Positions 7,485-12,166 of a DNA stretch of 24,444 nt are shown one piece after another (the stretch's first letter is position 1; every line of letters starts with the position of its first letter). A model generated the notes under the pieces. It searched no databases. It was not told where the DNA came from and saw only the letters and a program-made list of their open reading frames with translations. This DNA comes from a virus, in the IMG/VR virus record IMGVR_UViG_3300035670_001202, positions 1-24,444 of that record, one strand, 5' to 3'. The translations under genes were made by a program, and so were the position numbers.

Positions 7485-9265
7485 TGGCTTTTACATCATT
7501 CACAGTACGACAAACTATCTCTGATGGAGGTTCCGCCCTACGCCGTACTAATGTAACGCAAGACTCATCTACACCTAATGGTTCTGGTGACGCTGTTAGT
7601 GATAGTGGTCTTCGTGCTGATGGTTTCTTTCTTCCTATACCAGAGTCATTTTTACAATCAACATTTGAAGCACAAGTATACAATCGTACCTCAATTGAAT
7701 TAAATTGGGAATTTGGATTTACCCTTGTGTCTGTTCCAACAGGGACTGAGCCTGTTGAAGTAATAATCCGTGCGTCAAACTATGGTGAACCTGTAACAGC
7801 AGGCGATGGGTTTTCTACCTTAAGCGTTACAGCAGACAATTTTAGGTCTTCATATACAGACGAAAATTATCTGTACATAAAAGAAGGTAGTTGGGTTTAC
7901 TACTCAATGTTTGTCCGCTACCAAGATTCAGCGGGGGACGGTTTTACAGAAAGAGTAGCGACCTTATCTATTCAGATACCCCGAAATTTTAACTCAACGG
8001 AAGACCTGTGGAGAAGAATCCCGTCCTATTACCGTGAACTTGATGGAGACTATGTAGTAAATACGGTAGATTACCCATACGAAAACGGTCCTCTTTATCG
8101 CTATATTGAATTGTTTGGTTGGGAATTAGACAGAATCAGGACAATTATCTATGACACGATGCGTATTAATGACCCTGATGTAATTCATAGTTCTGCTATT
8201 GATGCTTTGGCAAATCAAACTGGTGTTGAGTTTACAAAAGATGCACTTGGTACTGGAAAGTTGCGCTCAGTTTTAAACAATATTGGTTACCTACGCCGTA
8301 CTAAAGGAACTACAAACAGTGTTGAATCGTATATTTCGGCTTTATCTGGTTGTGGAGTAACTACTACTATTGAAACATCTGGTGGAAATACCACTACGGT
8401 ATTTAATATTCACCCCATGCGTGCAAATCTTTTTAGTGACCCATTTCTTGAACAAGAAGCAAATAGTCCGATAGCACCAGATACTGGTGTTACACAGCGT
8501 GTATGGACTGACCTTAATGCCTCAGGTAGAGAGTACGGTTGGGGCGTTTACTCGGTGTTTAGCAGTGACCCAGCAACCGATTTGACAGTGTCTACTATAG
8601 GAAATAAGTTAACCGTAACTCTTCCTGCATTGTCTGGTACTGCCACATTGTTAATTTACTCTCGTGGAGATTTTCAATACAACAACAGTTTAACTTACTA
8701 TTACTCTGCAATAACTTCGCATGACTTTAGTCCAAGATTTATCTATGCGTATGACTTGGCAGGTCTTGAGTCAATGTCTCCACCACCAAGTGTTTCGTAT
8801 TTTGACTCTTGGAATGATTCCGTCACTGATTTTCCAGAATTTCAGGACTCGTTGACTAATGGTTCACGCACTATTATGGCAACTATTCCAAGTTCTTCTA
8901 CAGTTCTACCTTACAATGTTGTTCCTATTTATAAGTTCAGTATAACTTTGTCAGAAAGCGAGCCTACTGTGCTTACTTTTGAAAAACCATTGATTGAATA
9001 TAAGAACTCTAGCGGTGATTTTTTTACAGGAAATGAACCATCGGGTGGGTTTATCCCAGACCCTACTGGCTCTACAGGGGAAGGTCTATATGACTATCAC
9101 TGGGGACAGAATGCTGGTAGTTCTCAGCACACCGATTTCTCTTATTACACAATTGATTTTGCTCGTGTTAAAGCAGTAGTTGATAATATTGTTGAAAATT
9201 ATATTGTTCCCGTTACATTTGTTAAGAACACGGATTACGAGATTAGGTGGGATGTTTTAGAATGA
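7484..9265 (+). CDS. Tail protein gpI-like baseplate/fibre adaptor
   Basis: A 593-residue protein in TAATG overlap with gpJ. Residues about 165-305 match the P2 gpI pattern: RIPSYYRELD, YIELFGWELDRIRTIIYDTMRINDPDVIH, SAIDALANQTGVEF, LRSVLNNIGYLRRTKGT and VESYISALSG. gpI normally links the baseplate wedge to tail fibres. The family core is only about 200 residues, so this version is extended: an N-terminal beta domain (about 1-160) and a beta-rich C-terminal half (about 310-593) that is Ser/Thr/Tyr-rich and may act as a receptor-facing or carbohydrate-binding domain. No separate fibre gene follows in the window, so the extension may take over part of that job (inference). Confidence 0.75.
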   Translation: MAFTSFTVRQTISDGGSALRRTNVTQDSSTPNGSGDAVSDSGLRADGFFLPIPESFLQSTFEAQVYNRTSIELNWEFGFTLVSVPTGTEPVEVIIRASNYGEPVTAGDGFSTLSVTADNFRSSYTDENYLYIKEGSWVYYSMFVRYQDSAGDGFTERVATLSIQIPRNFNSTEDLWRRIPSYYRELDGDYVVNTVDYPYENGPLYRYIELFGWELDRIRTIIYDTMRINDPDVIHSSAIDALANQTGVEFTKDALGTGKLRSVLNNIGYLRRTKGTTNSVESYISALSGCGVTTTIETSGGNTTTVFNIHPMRANLFSDPFLEQEANSPIAPDTGVTQRVWTDLNASGREYGWGVYSVFSSDPATDLTVSTIGNKLTVTLPALSGTATLLIYSRGDFQYNNSLTYYYSAITSHDFSPRFIYAYDLAGLESMSPPPSVSYFDSWNDSVTDFPEFQDSLTNGSRTIMATIPSSSTVLPYNVVPIYKFSITLSESEPTVLTFEKPLIEYKNSSGDFFTGNEPSGGFIPDPTGSTGEGLYDYHWGQNAGSSQHTDFSYYTIDFARVKAVVDNIVENYIVPVTFVKNTDYEIRWDVLE

Positions 9266-9516
9266 GTTATTTACTAGCGGGTCTTGCCGTCTACAAACTG
9301 TTGCAGTTGCTTAATGCTCTTACCCCTAAAGAAGCAATGCCATGGGTAAAGATTATTGCTGGTATTGCTTTCGGTTATGGAACATCTTTCATCGTAAACC
9401 TTCCTGACAAGTGGACAAGTGGGCTGGTGGTTGCTACAATCGCATCTGCCTGTCACGGTCTCTTGCGACTCATTACATTGCATGGAGACTTGGCGGCTCG
9501 TAAGACCTACAAGTAA
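9262..9516 (+). CDS. Small membrane protein, holin candidate
   Basis: An 84-residue protein starting at ATG 9262 in ATGA overlap with the gpI gene; the in-frame GTG at 9247 is less likely because of that coupling. The hydrophobic stretches are SYLLAGLAVYKLLQLL (residues 2-17), IIAGIAFGYGTSFIVNL (about 31-47) and GLVVATIASACHGLLRLI (about 53-70), with a charged tail ending RKTYK. Two or three membrane segments, small size and a basic C-terminus are the hallmarks of holins, and the end of a tail operon is a usual site. No endolysin gene lies next to it, so another membrane role remains possible. Confidence 0.45.
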   Translation: MSYLLAGLAVYKLLQLLNALTPKEAMPWVKIIAGIAFGYGTSFIVNLPDKWTSGLVVATIASACHGLLRLITLHGDLAARKTYK

Positions 9517-9530
9517 CTAGGAGCAACAAC

Positions 9531-10292
9531 ATGAAGTATGGGATTATCGGCAGTGGTTCTGCCAACCCCAAGGTAGTACAAGACGGTTTGCTGGACATCG
9601 TTGATGGCGATGGCGAAGCGACATTTGTTATCCACGCACGCCGTGCTCCACAGGGAGCCGTTAGTGATGTCTATGACTTCTTGGTAGATAATGAAGTTCC
9701 CTTTGATGCTGTGCATCGCATTGATGACAATGCACCAAAAGCGTTGTTGAACTGTGCTATCAATGTCACCAAGACAGAAGACCCTGTAAAGTCCATTCTG
9801 GAAATGTGCGACAAGATTCTCCTTCTGTGGGATGAATCTAACGAGGAATCATCTGAGAAGTTGGCAATCATGTGTGCAGACGCTGGTAAAGCCATTCTGG
9901 ACTTGACTATGGCACTGACGCCTATTGTTATTGAGGGTTCGCCAGAACCTGAGAAAGTTGTACAAGAACCTGTACAAGTTGAAGAGACAGTTGATGTCTC
10001 ACCATTTAGCCGTGATGAGTTGATAAACATGAACATTGGAGTGCTTCGCCGTCAGGCTAAAGCAATGGGTGTTGAGAATGTTGGTAAGACCAAGGAAGAA
10101 ATTGTTGATGCAATCCTTGGATGTACACCAGAGGTAACAACTACTGCACCAGTGGTCTCTAGTGACTTCCATGTTCCACCCGTACAACTACCTAGCGAGT
10201 TCGCTGTTATTTCTTGGTACGAGAATGGGATTATGCAGGTGGCTCAAGCACCTGTTGAAAAGATTAAGCGACTACTTGGTGGAGGCAGTTAA
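9531..10292 (+). CDS. SLOG/Rossmann-like protein with SAP/Rho-N-like C-terminal motif, function unknown
   Basis: A 253-residue protein with a clear AGGAG site at 9519-9523. The N-terminus starts YGIIGSGSAN, a Gly-rich strand-loop, and a later strand-helix pair reads KILLLWDESNEESSEKLAIM, then GKAILDL. This order is typical of nucleotide-binding SLOG/DprA-like Rossmann folds. A Pro/Glu/Val linker (about 137-160) leads to SRDELINMNIGVLRRQAKAMGV followed by KTKEEIVDAIL (about 161-200), which resembles a SAP or Rho N-terminal nucleic-acid-binding helix pair. The last 30 residues are unrecognised. The gene is the last of the plus-strand late block and ends 21 nt inside the convergent Dps gene. Ligand and role are unknown. 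Confidence 0.5.
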   Translation: MKYGIIGSGSANPKVVQDGLLDIVDGDGEATFVIHARRAPQGAVSDVYDFLVDNEVPFDAVHRIDDNAPKALLNCAINVTKTEDPVKSILEMCDKILLLWDESNEESSEKLAIMCADAGKAILDLTMALTPIVIEGSPEPEKVVQEPVQVEETVDVSPFSRDELINMNIGVLRRQAKAMGVENVGKTKEEIVDAILGCTPEVTTTAPVVSSDFHVPPVQLPSEFAVISWYENGIMQVAQAPVEKIKRLLGGGS

Positions 10293-10706
10293 CTGCCAGC
10301 GCCACTTCTTATGCATGTCATCACGACCTGCTAAGAAATCCATAATGCCCTGCTCGCCAGCCTTCTCTGCTTCTTTGAACGCCTTGTTAACCGATTCAAT
10401 CAGACCTTCGTTGATGCGGAGGAGTTCCTTTGCCATTGCCTTTGGTTCGGGCTTCACATCCTTTGGCTCAATGGTGCGTAGACTCGTGAACTTACTGAGT
10501 GTGTACGGAGCGTACTCTCCCAACTTGCGTACATCTTCCGCAAGTGGGTCAATGGCTGAATAGACATCTTCATAAATCTCTGCGAATAAACCGTGGTACT
10601 GACTGAAGTCTTGTCCCTCAACATTCCAGTGAAATCCCTGTGCAACGAAATACATCGTTACCGAATCAGATAACACGGTCTTAAGAGAATCAGTAAGTGC
10701 GCTCAC
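10272..10706 (-). CDS. dps: Dps-like mini-ferritin (DNA-protection / iron-storage protein)
   Basis: A 144-residue protein. Two GTG codons are adjacent (10709 and 10706). I prefer 10706 because it gives GTGA overlap with the upstream stop and 7 nt spacing to AAGG. It shows the Dps ferroxidase pattern: FHWNVEG with His26, YHG with His38, then Asp53 and Glu57 in AIDPLAEDVRKLG. The spacings of 12, 15 and 19 match those of known Dps proteins. The position four after His38, Asp in Listeria Dps, is Ala here, with Glu next to it. The closing DFLAGRDDMHKKWRWQL matches the last Dps helix. Dps 12-mers oxidise iron with peroxide and can coat DNA. No Lys-rich N-terminal tail is present, so DNA binding is not assured. 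It is the distal gene of the minus-strand cassette. Confidence 0.85.
   Translation of the reverse strand: MSALTDSLKTVLSDSVTMYFVAQGFHWNVEGQDFSQYHGLFAEIYEDVYSAIDPLAEDVRKLGEYAPYTLSKFTSLRTIEPKDVKPEPKAMAKELLRINEGLIESVNKAFKEAEKAGEQGIMDFLAGRDDMHKKWRWQLTASTK
10277..10304. terminator. Hairpin at the convergent gene junction, possible two-way terminator
   Basis: The 14-bp perfect palindrome GGCAGTTAACTGCC (10284-10297) is flanked, after a 2x2 mismatch, by a second short stem TGGTG/CGCCA (10277-10281 with 10300-10304, one G-U pair). It lies exactly where the plus-strand and minus-strand genes overlap, and the plus-strand stop TAA (10290-10292) forms part of the loop. There is no clear T-run on either side, so a classical intrinsic terminator is uncertain. 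Confidence 0.45.
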
Positions 10707-10972
10707 CACTTCACCTTGTCAGCCCAATATGCGGCGCTCAACTTGCCCTTCTTAATGTTCTTTGCATGACGAGCCTTAAATGAATCGTTGCGTGCAGAAC
10801 CATCAGGAGAACCCTTTACACCCTGCTGACCAAAACGAATTGTCTTGATTGTGTCGCCATCTTTAGCAACAACAATGTGAGACTTTGTAGGGTGGTCTGG
10901 TGTTGCCTTAGGCTTGTTGTAACCAGACACACCTGCACGCTCAAGGCGTGGGTCTTTCTTGCTCTCAGCCAT
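10703..10972 (-). CDS. Small basic protein of unknown function (KVKW C-terminus)
   Basis: An 89-residue basic protein with no transmembrane segment or known catalytic motif. Visible blocks are GYNKPKATPDHPTKSHIVVAK (about 17-37), a central DGDTIKTIRFGQQGVKG, and the C-terminal SFKARHAKNIKKGKLSAAYW ending KVKW. I recall similar short proteins from other aquatic phage genomes but cannot name the family with certainty. Its start overlaps the stop of the Cys-rich gene (TAATG), and its stop overlaps the Dps start (GTGA), so it is translated as part of one unit. A nucleic-acid-binding role is only a guess from the charge. Confidence 0.7.
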   Translation of the reverse strand: MAESKKDPRLERAGVSGYNKPKATPDHPTKSHIVVAKDGDTIKTIRFGQQGVKGSPDGSARNDSFKARHAKNIKKGKLSAAYWADKVKW

Positions 10973-11076
10973 TACTTCTTTACCTTGCTACGAGCACCCT
11001 TACAGGTCTTGCAATCACACTTGCAACCTTTGTCAGGCTTTCCTGCTTTGCATCCGCATCCACATTTTGCGCACAT
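10972..11076 (-). CDS. 34-residue Cys-rich, metallothionein-like peptide
   Basis: A tiny gene that fills the gap between two minus-strand genes. Its ATG (11076-11074) overlaps the upstream stop and its TAA (10974-10972) overlaps the downstream ATG, both as TAATG. This fit on both sides is good evidence that it is real. The peptide has 8 Cys in 34 residues (positions 2, 5, 7, 9, 18, 20, 22, 25), arranged as CxxCxCxC and CxCxCxxC, plus many Lys and no aromatic residues. That composition is typical of metallothioneins, which bind Zn, Cu or Cd in thiolate clusters. It could instead be a small structural zinc-binding peptide. The neighbouring Dps gene makes a metal-handling role plausible. Confidence 0.72.
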   Translation of the reverse strand: MCAKCGCGCKAGKPDKGCKCDCKTCKGARSKVKK

Positions 11077-11333
11077 TATTTACTTCTCGCTTTCTTAGAG
11101 GCTTCTTCAGCCTTCTTAGTGTTGGGCACAAACTGCTTTCCTTTTTTTGTGCCTTCTTTTTTCTTTTTGCTGGTAGCCGCATACTCTTCATCACTTAGTG
11201 ATTCAATTGCTTTCTTAGGAAGATATCTCTCCCCAGTTGCATTCTTACCTTGAGTAGAAGGCTTACCAGATTTTGTTCCCCACTCTTCTTTGGTCCACTT
11301 GTCCAAAGATTTTTGAGACTTCGCTTTAGCCAT
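11076..11333 (-). CDS. Small Lys-rich protein of unknown function
   Basis: An 85-residue, very Lys-rich soluble protein. Visible blocks are QKSLDKWTKEEWGTKSGKP (7-25), TGERYLPKKAIESLSDEEYA (33-52) and a C-terminal half made largely of Lys, Ala, Glu and Ser. The stretch from WTKEEW to LPKKAI recurs, as far as I recall, in short proteins of phages and environmental bacteria without known function. Start and stop both overlap the neighbouring genes (TGATG and TAATG). The charge suggests contact with nucleic acid, but no named fold can be seen. Confidence 0.7.
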   Translation of the reverse strand: MAKAKSQKSLDKWTKEEWGTKSGKPSTQGKNATGERYLPKKAIESLSDEEYAATSKKKKEGTKKGKQFVPNTKKAEEASKKARSK

Positions 11334-11533
11334 CAGTCTTTATACCCTCCGCCTTGTGCTTTGTATTCCTTAGCAAGCATCTGGGCTTTTCGTGCAGACC
11401 ACTCACCTGGGTCTCCACCTTTGCTTCCAGCCTTAATCTGATTAAACAGTTTCTTCCTAAGTGCAGGTTTGGTGTAGTTACCCGCCTCGTTTACCTTGGA
11501 CTCTTTTTTATCGCTTTGTTTCTTTGTAGCCAT
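11333..11533 (-). CDS. Small Lys-rich protein, first gene of the minus-strand cassette
   Basis: A 66-residue basic protein with the blocks VNEAGNYTKPALRKKLFNQIK (14-34), GGDPGEWSARKAQMLAKEYK and a GGGY end. I recall this pattern from short uncharacterised phage and bacterial proteins. No Shine-Dalgarno sequence precedes the ATG, and a TAAAAT box lies only 6 nt upstream, so the mRNA may be leaderless. It opens the five-gene operon that ends with Dps and is coupled to the next gene by TGATG. Confidence 0.68.
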   Translation of the reverse strand: MATKKQSDKKESKVNEAGNYTKPALRKKLFNQIKAGSKGGDPGEWSARKAQMLAKEYKAQGGGYKD

Positions 11534-11539
11534 TGGACT

Positions 11540-11545
11540 ATTTTA
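11540..11545 (-). promoter_or_regulatory. Putative -10 box TAAAAT for the minus-strand cassette
   Basis: On the minus strand TAAAAT is followed by AGTCCA and then the ATG of the 66-residue gene. Transcription would start at or next to the ATG, which fits the absence of a ribosome binding site. The best -35 candidate, TTGCCC, is 21 nt away, too far for a standard promoter. Confidence 0.35.
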
Positions 11546-11674: not shown

Positions 11675-12166
11675 ATGTCAACCAAATTTGGCGGTCCTTT
11701 CCTAGCCTTTCCCCGATGGGTTTTACCCTATTTGCAAGGGGATTCAACCGCCAAAGCAGTGCTCTTGGAACTACTGGTGTACATGCGCCCTGAGACCCAG
11801 ACAACCACGACCTCATACAAGTACATTGCCGAGCAGGTAGGTGTAGACAGGCGCACAGTTATCCGTGCCATTCAGCGTCTGGAATCGGCTGGTGTCATCA
11901 TCAGAAAGCACCGTGGGACCAAGGGGCATAACCTGTCCAATGCCTTTCTCATCAACTTCAACAACCCCCAAGCCATGGAGGGGGTAGTGTCACCCATGAC
12001 ACTAGGTGGTGACACTGGTGACACTAGGGGTGGTGACACCCATGACACTACCCTAGTGTCACCCATGACACCCAATAAAGAGTATAAGAATAAGAGTAAA
12101 AATAAGAGTACCCATATCAAGAGGCAGACTGAGGGGTATGACGATGTGGAGGTCAGTCGTGTCTGA
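11675..12166 (+). CDS. Winged-helix replication initiator, lambda O-like in layout
   Basis: A 163-residue protein with GGAG at 11664-11667. Residues about 1-95 contain a winged-helix domain: an N-terminal helix rich in Leu and Tyr, then SYKYIAEQVGVDRRTVIRAI as helix-turn-helix and RLESAGVIIRKHRGTKGHNL as wing. This is the kind of DNA-binding domain seen in phage replication initiators. Residues about 103-145 are a low-complexity linker of repeated GDT, SPMT and KNK units, encoded by the DNA repeat cluster at 11985-12110. The protein ends in YDDVEVSRV. The following genes are a partner protein, a helicase loader and DnaB. Together this resembles lambda O, whose gene also contains the origin. 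A plain transcription regulator is the alternative. Confidence 0.7.
   Translation: MSTKFGGPFLAFPRWVLPYLQGDSTAKAVLLELLVYMRPETQTTTTSYKYIAEQVGVDRRTVIRAIQRLESAGVIIRKHRGTKGHNLSNAFLINFNNPQAMEGVVSPMTLGGDTGDTRGGDTHDTTLVSPMTPNKEYKNKSKNKSTHIKRQTEGYDDVEVSRV
11985..12071. repeat. Iteron-like TGACAC repeat cluster with two palindromic units
   Basis: Plus-strand TGACAC starts at 11997, 12010, 12019, 12034, 12043 and 12066. The reverse form GTGTCA starts at 11987 and 12056. The first palindrome, TAGTGTCACCCATGACACTA (11985-12004), has perfect 8-bp arms around CCCA. A second copy, TAGTGTCACCCATGACAC, sits at 12054-12071. The two inverted units frame the four direct copies, making the whole array roughly symmetrical. 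Confidence 0.85.
12074..12110 (+). repeat. AT-rich direct repeats, possible DNA-unwinding element
   Basis: AATAAGAGTA occurs at 12089-12098 and 12101-12110, with a close variant AATAAAGAGTA at 12074-12084. The stretch from 12074 to 12110 is almost all A, T and G on the plus strand and abuts the TGACAC array. It encodes the Asn/Lys/Ser-rich end of the linker in the initiator protein. Confidence 0.6.

Follow-up and report, generated by a model that had tools for sequence, protein, structure and literature searches.

The window analysed here is a virus record of 24,444 bases, with plus-strand tail genes on its left side and replication and recombination genes on its right. Between these two blocks lie five minus-strand genes (10272-11533), opposite to every other credible gene of the window and each joined to its neighbour by an overlap of 1-4 nt (Table 1). 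From the promoter-proximal to the distal end, the order is lys1, lys2, an 8-Cys 34-mer, gK and Dps, and the successive junctions are TGATG, TAATG, TAATG and GTGA. An earlier reading, made from the sequence only, had described this layout and a content of three basic or Lys-rich proteins, an 8-Cys peptide and a Dps. Both descriptions are confirmed, the first by coordinates and junctions and the second by the Pfam Ferritin and PHROG matches, the isoelectric points and the selection acting on the genes.

Table 1. Features of the minus-strand cassette and its flanks (positions in the window).
Feature	Position	Strand	Support
Dps mini-ferritin, probably 144 aa, promoter-distal	10272..10706 (alternative GTG start 10709)	-	Pfam Ferritin 4e-15, phrog_3636 8e-27
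gK, 89-aa basic protein	10703..10972	-	phrog_7595 4e-36; model pLDDT 84.5
8-Cys 34-aa peptide MCAKCGCGCKAGKPDKGCKCDCKTCKGARSKVKK, MCxxCGC family	10972..11076	-	dN/dS about 0.02; eight invariant Cys
lys2, 85-aa Lys-rich, second half of DUF5872-like protein	11076..11333	-	phrog_14910 2e-27
lys1, 66-aa Lys-rich, first half of DUF5872-like protein	11333..11533	-	phrog_17747 1e-35
Candidate -10 element TAAAAT, 6 nt before lys1 ATG	11540..11545	-	TANNNT enrichment
c12, tail-side flank gene, convergent; 3' end overlaps Dps by 21 nt	9531..10292	+	
c14, replication-initiation-like flank gene, divergent	11675..12166	+	phrog_270 8e-16

Of the PHROG families matched by Dps, gK, lys2 and lys1, only that of Dps carries a function label. 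In each cassette gene, synonymous change far exceeds non-synonymous change between the window and its relatives; against the relative L010, dN/dS is 0.07 for Dps, 0.14 for gK and 0.03 for lys2. With pI values of 9.4-10.1 the partners are strongly basic, whereas that of the acidic Dps is 5.2. No tRNA or Rfam elements were found in the window. Among cultured phages, no match was obtained for the window by megablast or for Dps and the 34-mer by tblastn, so that no close cultured relative could be used.

The Dps protein matches PF00210 over its whole length with 56.4 bits (cut-off 24.5), and the Dps family profile retrieves Dps chains from the PDB with E-values down to 1e-30. Its start is probably the GTG at 10706, which is favoured because the relatives begin with MSALT. 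Residues H27, H39, D54 and E58 (145-aa numbering) are found at Dps spacing and are invariant in 32 sequences; we take them to be the ferroxidase ligands, as in Dps in general. A Lys-rich DNA-binding tail is missing. The likeness to P. aeruginosa PA0962 Dps (8ff9) and H. pylori NAP (1ji4) consists of the full-length match, the ferroxidase spacing and the lack of a Lys-rich N-terminal tail. The former is the closest solved relative (E 2e-20), and it oxidises Fe2+ with H2O2 and guards cells against H2O2 (PMC10002758). Compared with bacterial Dps, the viral protein differs in its operon partners and, in relatives, in its linkage to the portal gene. Identity of the viral lineage to bacterial Dps does not exceed 38% in a sample of about 600 genomes, whereas viral sequences share 40-93% with one another; a recent acquisition from a host was therefore not supported. 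Dps is the most conserved of the compared genes, above the helicase of the clade, and its distances follow those of the backbone genes, which points to a mostly vertical inheritance in the clade.

The query used to retrieve relatives was a small tail-end gene (9262-9513) that is not part of the cassette. The interval is spanned by 33 loci, near duplicates included; 17 are distinct at a 95% Dps identity cut, which is the fairer count. Dps is on the opposite strand in all of them (33/33; 17/17 distinct), and each of 11 longer relatives encodes exactly one Dps. A gK gene is present in 20 loci and a DUF6321 protein (PF19846), which substitutes for it, in 11, together 31 and never both. The other members are the Lys-rich c30 (26/33), the Cys peptide (13/33), the small membrane-type c82 (8/33), c72 (5/33) and lys1 with lys2 (3/33). 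The fixed core is Dps with gK or DUF6321, and the five-gene set is one version of the island, because all members vary except Dps and the gK/DUF6321 slot. The sequence-only reading had proposed to look for the same gene set in related genomes; co-occurrence was indeed found, in nearly all loci for this core and in a part of them for lys1/lys2 and the Cys peptide. Adjacent gene pairs in relatives retrieved independently of the cassette overlap by exactly 1 nt in 40 of 92 cases. Small hydrophobic proteins, c82 and c122, recur in the Dps island (L012:3517-3741, L010:3786-4007), and c122 matches phrog_2421 and, weakly, a PnuC-like family.

The 34-mer contains eight Cys in CxxC/CxC spacing, without a single aromatic residue or His. 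Between the window and L010, about 12.5 synonymous and 2.5 non-synonymous changes were counted. When viral contigs were scanned for the peptide start, 38 stretches were obtained, which were pooled with the other loci into a set of distinct peptides. In the 17 distinct 8-Cys peptides, none of the eight Cys varies, and this holds also for the last four, on which the search pattern placed no constraint. Judged by this pattern of change, the 34-mer is a real gene under strong protein-level selection, which bears out the translation on which the earlier proposal had relied. With its small size, Cys spacing and lack of aromatic residues it resembles metallothioneins, but it is strongly basic, its metal binding is only putative, and no match was found among Pfam, PHROG and NCBIfam models up to an E-value of 1. 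It is not filed as a metallothionein, as no described metallothionein family was matched. The MCxxCGC start resembles the N-terminal motif of HypB, in which CXXCGC is a high-affinity nickel site (PMC7055735). A second type of MCxxCGC peptide shares only this start, and many of its members continue with KKAPAKKTAAKK-type tails. At L393:8416-9124 and similar loci, lys1, lys2 and two tandem MCxxCGC peptides are located between tail-fibre-type and tail-sheath genes; no Dps is found near these genes in such phages.

The lys1 and lys2 genes co-occur in 88 of 88 viral loci, and in 29 of 80 bacterial loci one ORF holds both halves. Neither half from the window gives a Pfam match to DUF5872 (PF19197). 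The bacterial fusion L298 aligns to it across both halves with 26.3 bits, just under the cut-off of 27.5. By this sequence comparison, lys1 and lys2 are the split halves of one bacterial protein, probably DUF5872-like, to which they correspond jointly, the phage version being two genes with sub-cut-off members in the window. Two of the basic or Lys-rich proteins of the earlier description are thus halves of a single protein in bacteria. In 5 of 6 SAR11 fusion loci, the neighbours are CFA synthase, DUF1365, SDR, TspO and FAD oxidoreductase genes, and DUF3833 is present in most cases. Gene sets of this type occur in photo-oxidative stress regulons. Other SAR11-binned contigs carry a split lys1/lys2 pair directly after the terminase gene. 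In the SAR11 loci L296, L311, L315, L318, L319 and L321, the lys2 half comes first, opposite to the order in other bacteria.

No Pfam match to DUF5754 (PF19058) was obtained for the gK of the window, and 9 of 34 members of its family match this domain below the cut-off. From these matches, gK is probably a distant DUF5754 relative. Homology between gK and the DUF6321 proteins that replace it was considered as well, and nothing beyond a 16-residue motif was found. The predicted gK fold recurs within larger phage proteins, among them ICP1 ORF125, a predicted capsid-maturation protease (PMC7567579, PMC9040626). Both DUF5754 and DUF5872 are carried by a giant algal virus (PMC12085832). Solved structures searched with the gK, lys1 and lys2 profiles gave chance matches only. 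For the models of gK and of a bacterial lys1-lys2 fusion, Foldseek and VIA-align returned no convincing PDB match, which is not evidence for a new fold.

Outside the clade, 57 further viral Dps loci were compared, and in 46 of these a portal gene is the immediate neighbour of Dps, on the upstream side in 40 and on the downstream side in 6. Portal genes were called by phrog_776 and phrog_156; one member of each sequence cluster was scanned, and its label was given to the whole cluster. Moreover, a dps-gK pair is close to a phrog_64 portal gene in L029 and L031, the latter also with c72-lys1-lys2. In 17 of the 57 loci, Dps is encoded within a longer ORF (375-690 aa). A segment with 9-10 Cys in 40 residues is present in 11 of 12 distinct fused ORFs, and both full-length fused proteins that were inspected end in a Lys/Arg-rich region. 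The combination of Dps with Cys-rich and basic parts recurs across lineages despite the lack of detectable homology of these extra parts. A search for homology of the basic C-terminus of fused Dps to lys1, lys2 or gK found none. In L033:3959-6031, L052:3962-6016 and about 15 more, the segment fused to Dps is of the CPLCGxxGCVCPGC type and the gene comes directly after the portal gene. Fused ORFs of the L033 and L052 type also hold further Cys-containing parts and a basic C-terminus.

The hosts of the clade are probably actinobacterial, as indicated by WhiB genes in 8 of 11 relatives; among 14 control genomes only Corynebacterium was positive. WhiB genes are considered to mark actinophages (PMC10202952), and the DNA polymerase is nearest to that of Streptomyces phages (33%). 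Two WhiB-like genes, on opposite strands, are present in each of the relatives G600-G606 and G608. Of 15 distinct upstream regions, which are related by descent, 9 have a TANNNT element 4-8 nt ahead of the first ATG, compared with a mean of 1.5 after shuffling; this suggests a leaderless transcript with a putative promoter and later genes translated by coupling. Promoter- and terminator-like sites in a consensus scan of the window stayed within chance.

We favour a reading in which the cassette would be a co-transcribed and co-translated protection module, a core part of this probable-actinophage clade. A promoter divergent from the replication block would give a probably leaderless message, with the later genes read by stop-start coupling. 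Dps would assemble as a mini-ferritin, oxidising and storing Fe2+ with the use of H2O2, by which Fenton damage to the phage DNA would be prevented. Because this Dps is without a Lys-rich tail, it is proposed to rely on its basic partners, which would probably mediate its contact with the DNA or head. Soft metals, e.g., Zn, Cu or Ni, may be chelated by the 8-Cys peptide. As Dps adjoins the portal gene in other lineages, a linkage that favours a late or head-associated role, the module would probably operate at a late stage, at about the time of packaging or inside the virion, in addition to its action within the cell. We hold the full scheme, late role included, with moderate confidence. It is weakened by the rarity of lys1/lys2 in the clade, by the position of the clade's Dps, which is not beside the portal gene, and by the fused proteins, whose Cys-rich and basic parts lack detectable homology to the partners in the window. 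In cultured phages with other Dps, the genes are located among nucleotide-metabolism or other genes and not among head genes. The metal/oxidative-stress or DNA-protection module of the sequence-only reading thus survives as a likely theme, with ferroxidase residues intact and parts conserved, but not with the five-gene set as a conserved unit.

A more specific version is put forward tentatively. Dps, basic partners and Cys-rich metal site might form one head- or packaging-linked nucleoprotein module that travels with the phage DNA and guards the genome from iron and peroxide outside the cell or on entry. Some lineages would encode it as one fused protein next to the portal, and the clade of the window as an operon of separate genes on the opposite strand. 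Literature searches for phages that encode these small proteins gave no usable virion proteomics.

Alternatively, Dps and the peptide might serve auxiliary defence against reactive oxygen only, so that the infected host survives light, peroxide or protist grazing up to lysis; a packaging or virion link would be absent, and the basic proteins would have other jobs. Published thinking on such defence and the stress-type SAR11 cluster favour host protection: ferritin and other ROS-defence genes occur in more than 10% of one freshwater phage set and were read in this way (PMC6802176), and the SAR11 chromosomal lys2-lys1 fusion clusters with CFA synthase, TspO and oxidoreductase genes. The portal-adjacent viral Dps genes and the placement of lys1-lys2 in late or head regions, for instance immediately behind the terminase gene, argue against it, and we consider this restriction to host defence rather doubtful.

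The frequent exchange of members outside the Dps and gK/DUF6321 positions, and the small membrane-type genes c82 and c122 that occur there too, would also fit a loose accessory (moron) island, a transcriptionally insulated slot collecting unrelated small genes with shared transcription and no joint function. This is unlikely, given that gK and DUF6321 replace each other, that the same partners recur beside Dps or Cys peptides in other phages and that Dps, Cys-rich and basic parts form a single polypeptide elsewhere. It is highly improbable that the peptide and Dps keep Fe, Zn or Ni available to metalloproteins of the phage or host instead of detoxifying them; the HypB-like start (PMC7055735) and eight invariant cysteines would suit such trafficking, but the island has no metal transporter or known metal-dependent partner, and many MCxxCGC peptides have Lys-rich tails that are more suggestive of binding to nucleic acids.

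The freshwater phage genes (PMC6802176) resemble the protection module favoured here in that a ferritin is encoded by the phage, for which protection from reactive oxygen is proposed. They are scattered accessory genes there, whereas here the island is fixed, universal, on the opposite strand and equipped with defined small partners. Among the papers that could be searched, which does not prove absence, none was found to describe this island, the MCxxCGC family, the split DUF5872 relation or a portal-adjacent Dps. The fixed island, the peptide family and the portal link appear to be new, whereas ferritins and ROS defence of phages had been described before and the domains had entries without function. 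The combination, which the earlier reading did not know as a described system, appears to be new as an island, but four of its five families were PHROGs already and ferritin/ROS genes of freshwater phages had been published.

If the protection module is real, a widespread aquatic virus type would protect its own DNA chemically, and small “hypothetical” proteins common to marine phages, giant algal viruses and bacteria would gain a testable role. The portal-adjacent Dps fusions pose the direct question of whether Dps is in the virion. The MCxxCGC family offers easily synthesised candidate metal-binding peptides of 33-70 aa. At the end of some MCxxCGC peptides (L383, L384, L397, L400, L405 and L409), an EF-hand-like loop is seen, e.g., DMNKNGKLDGADF.
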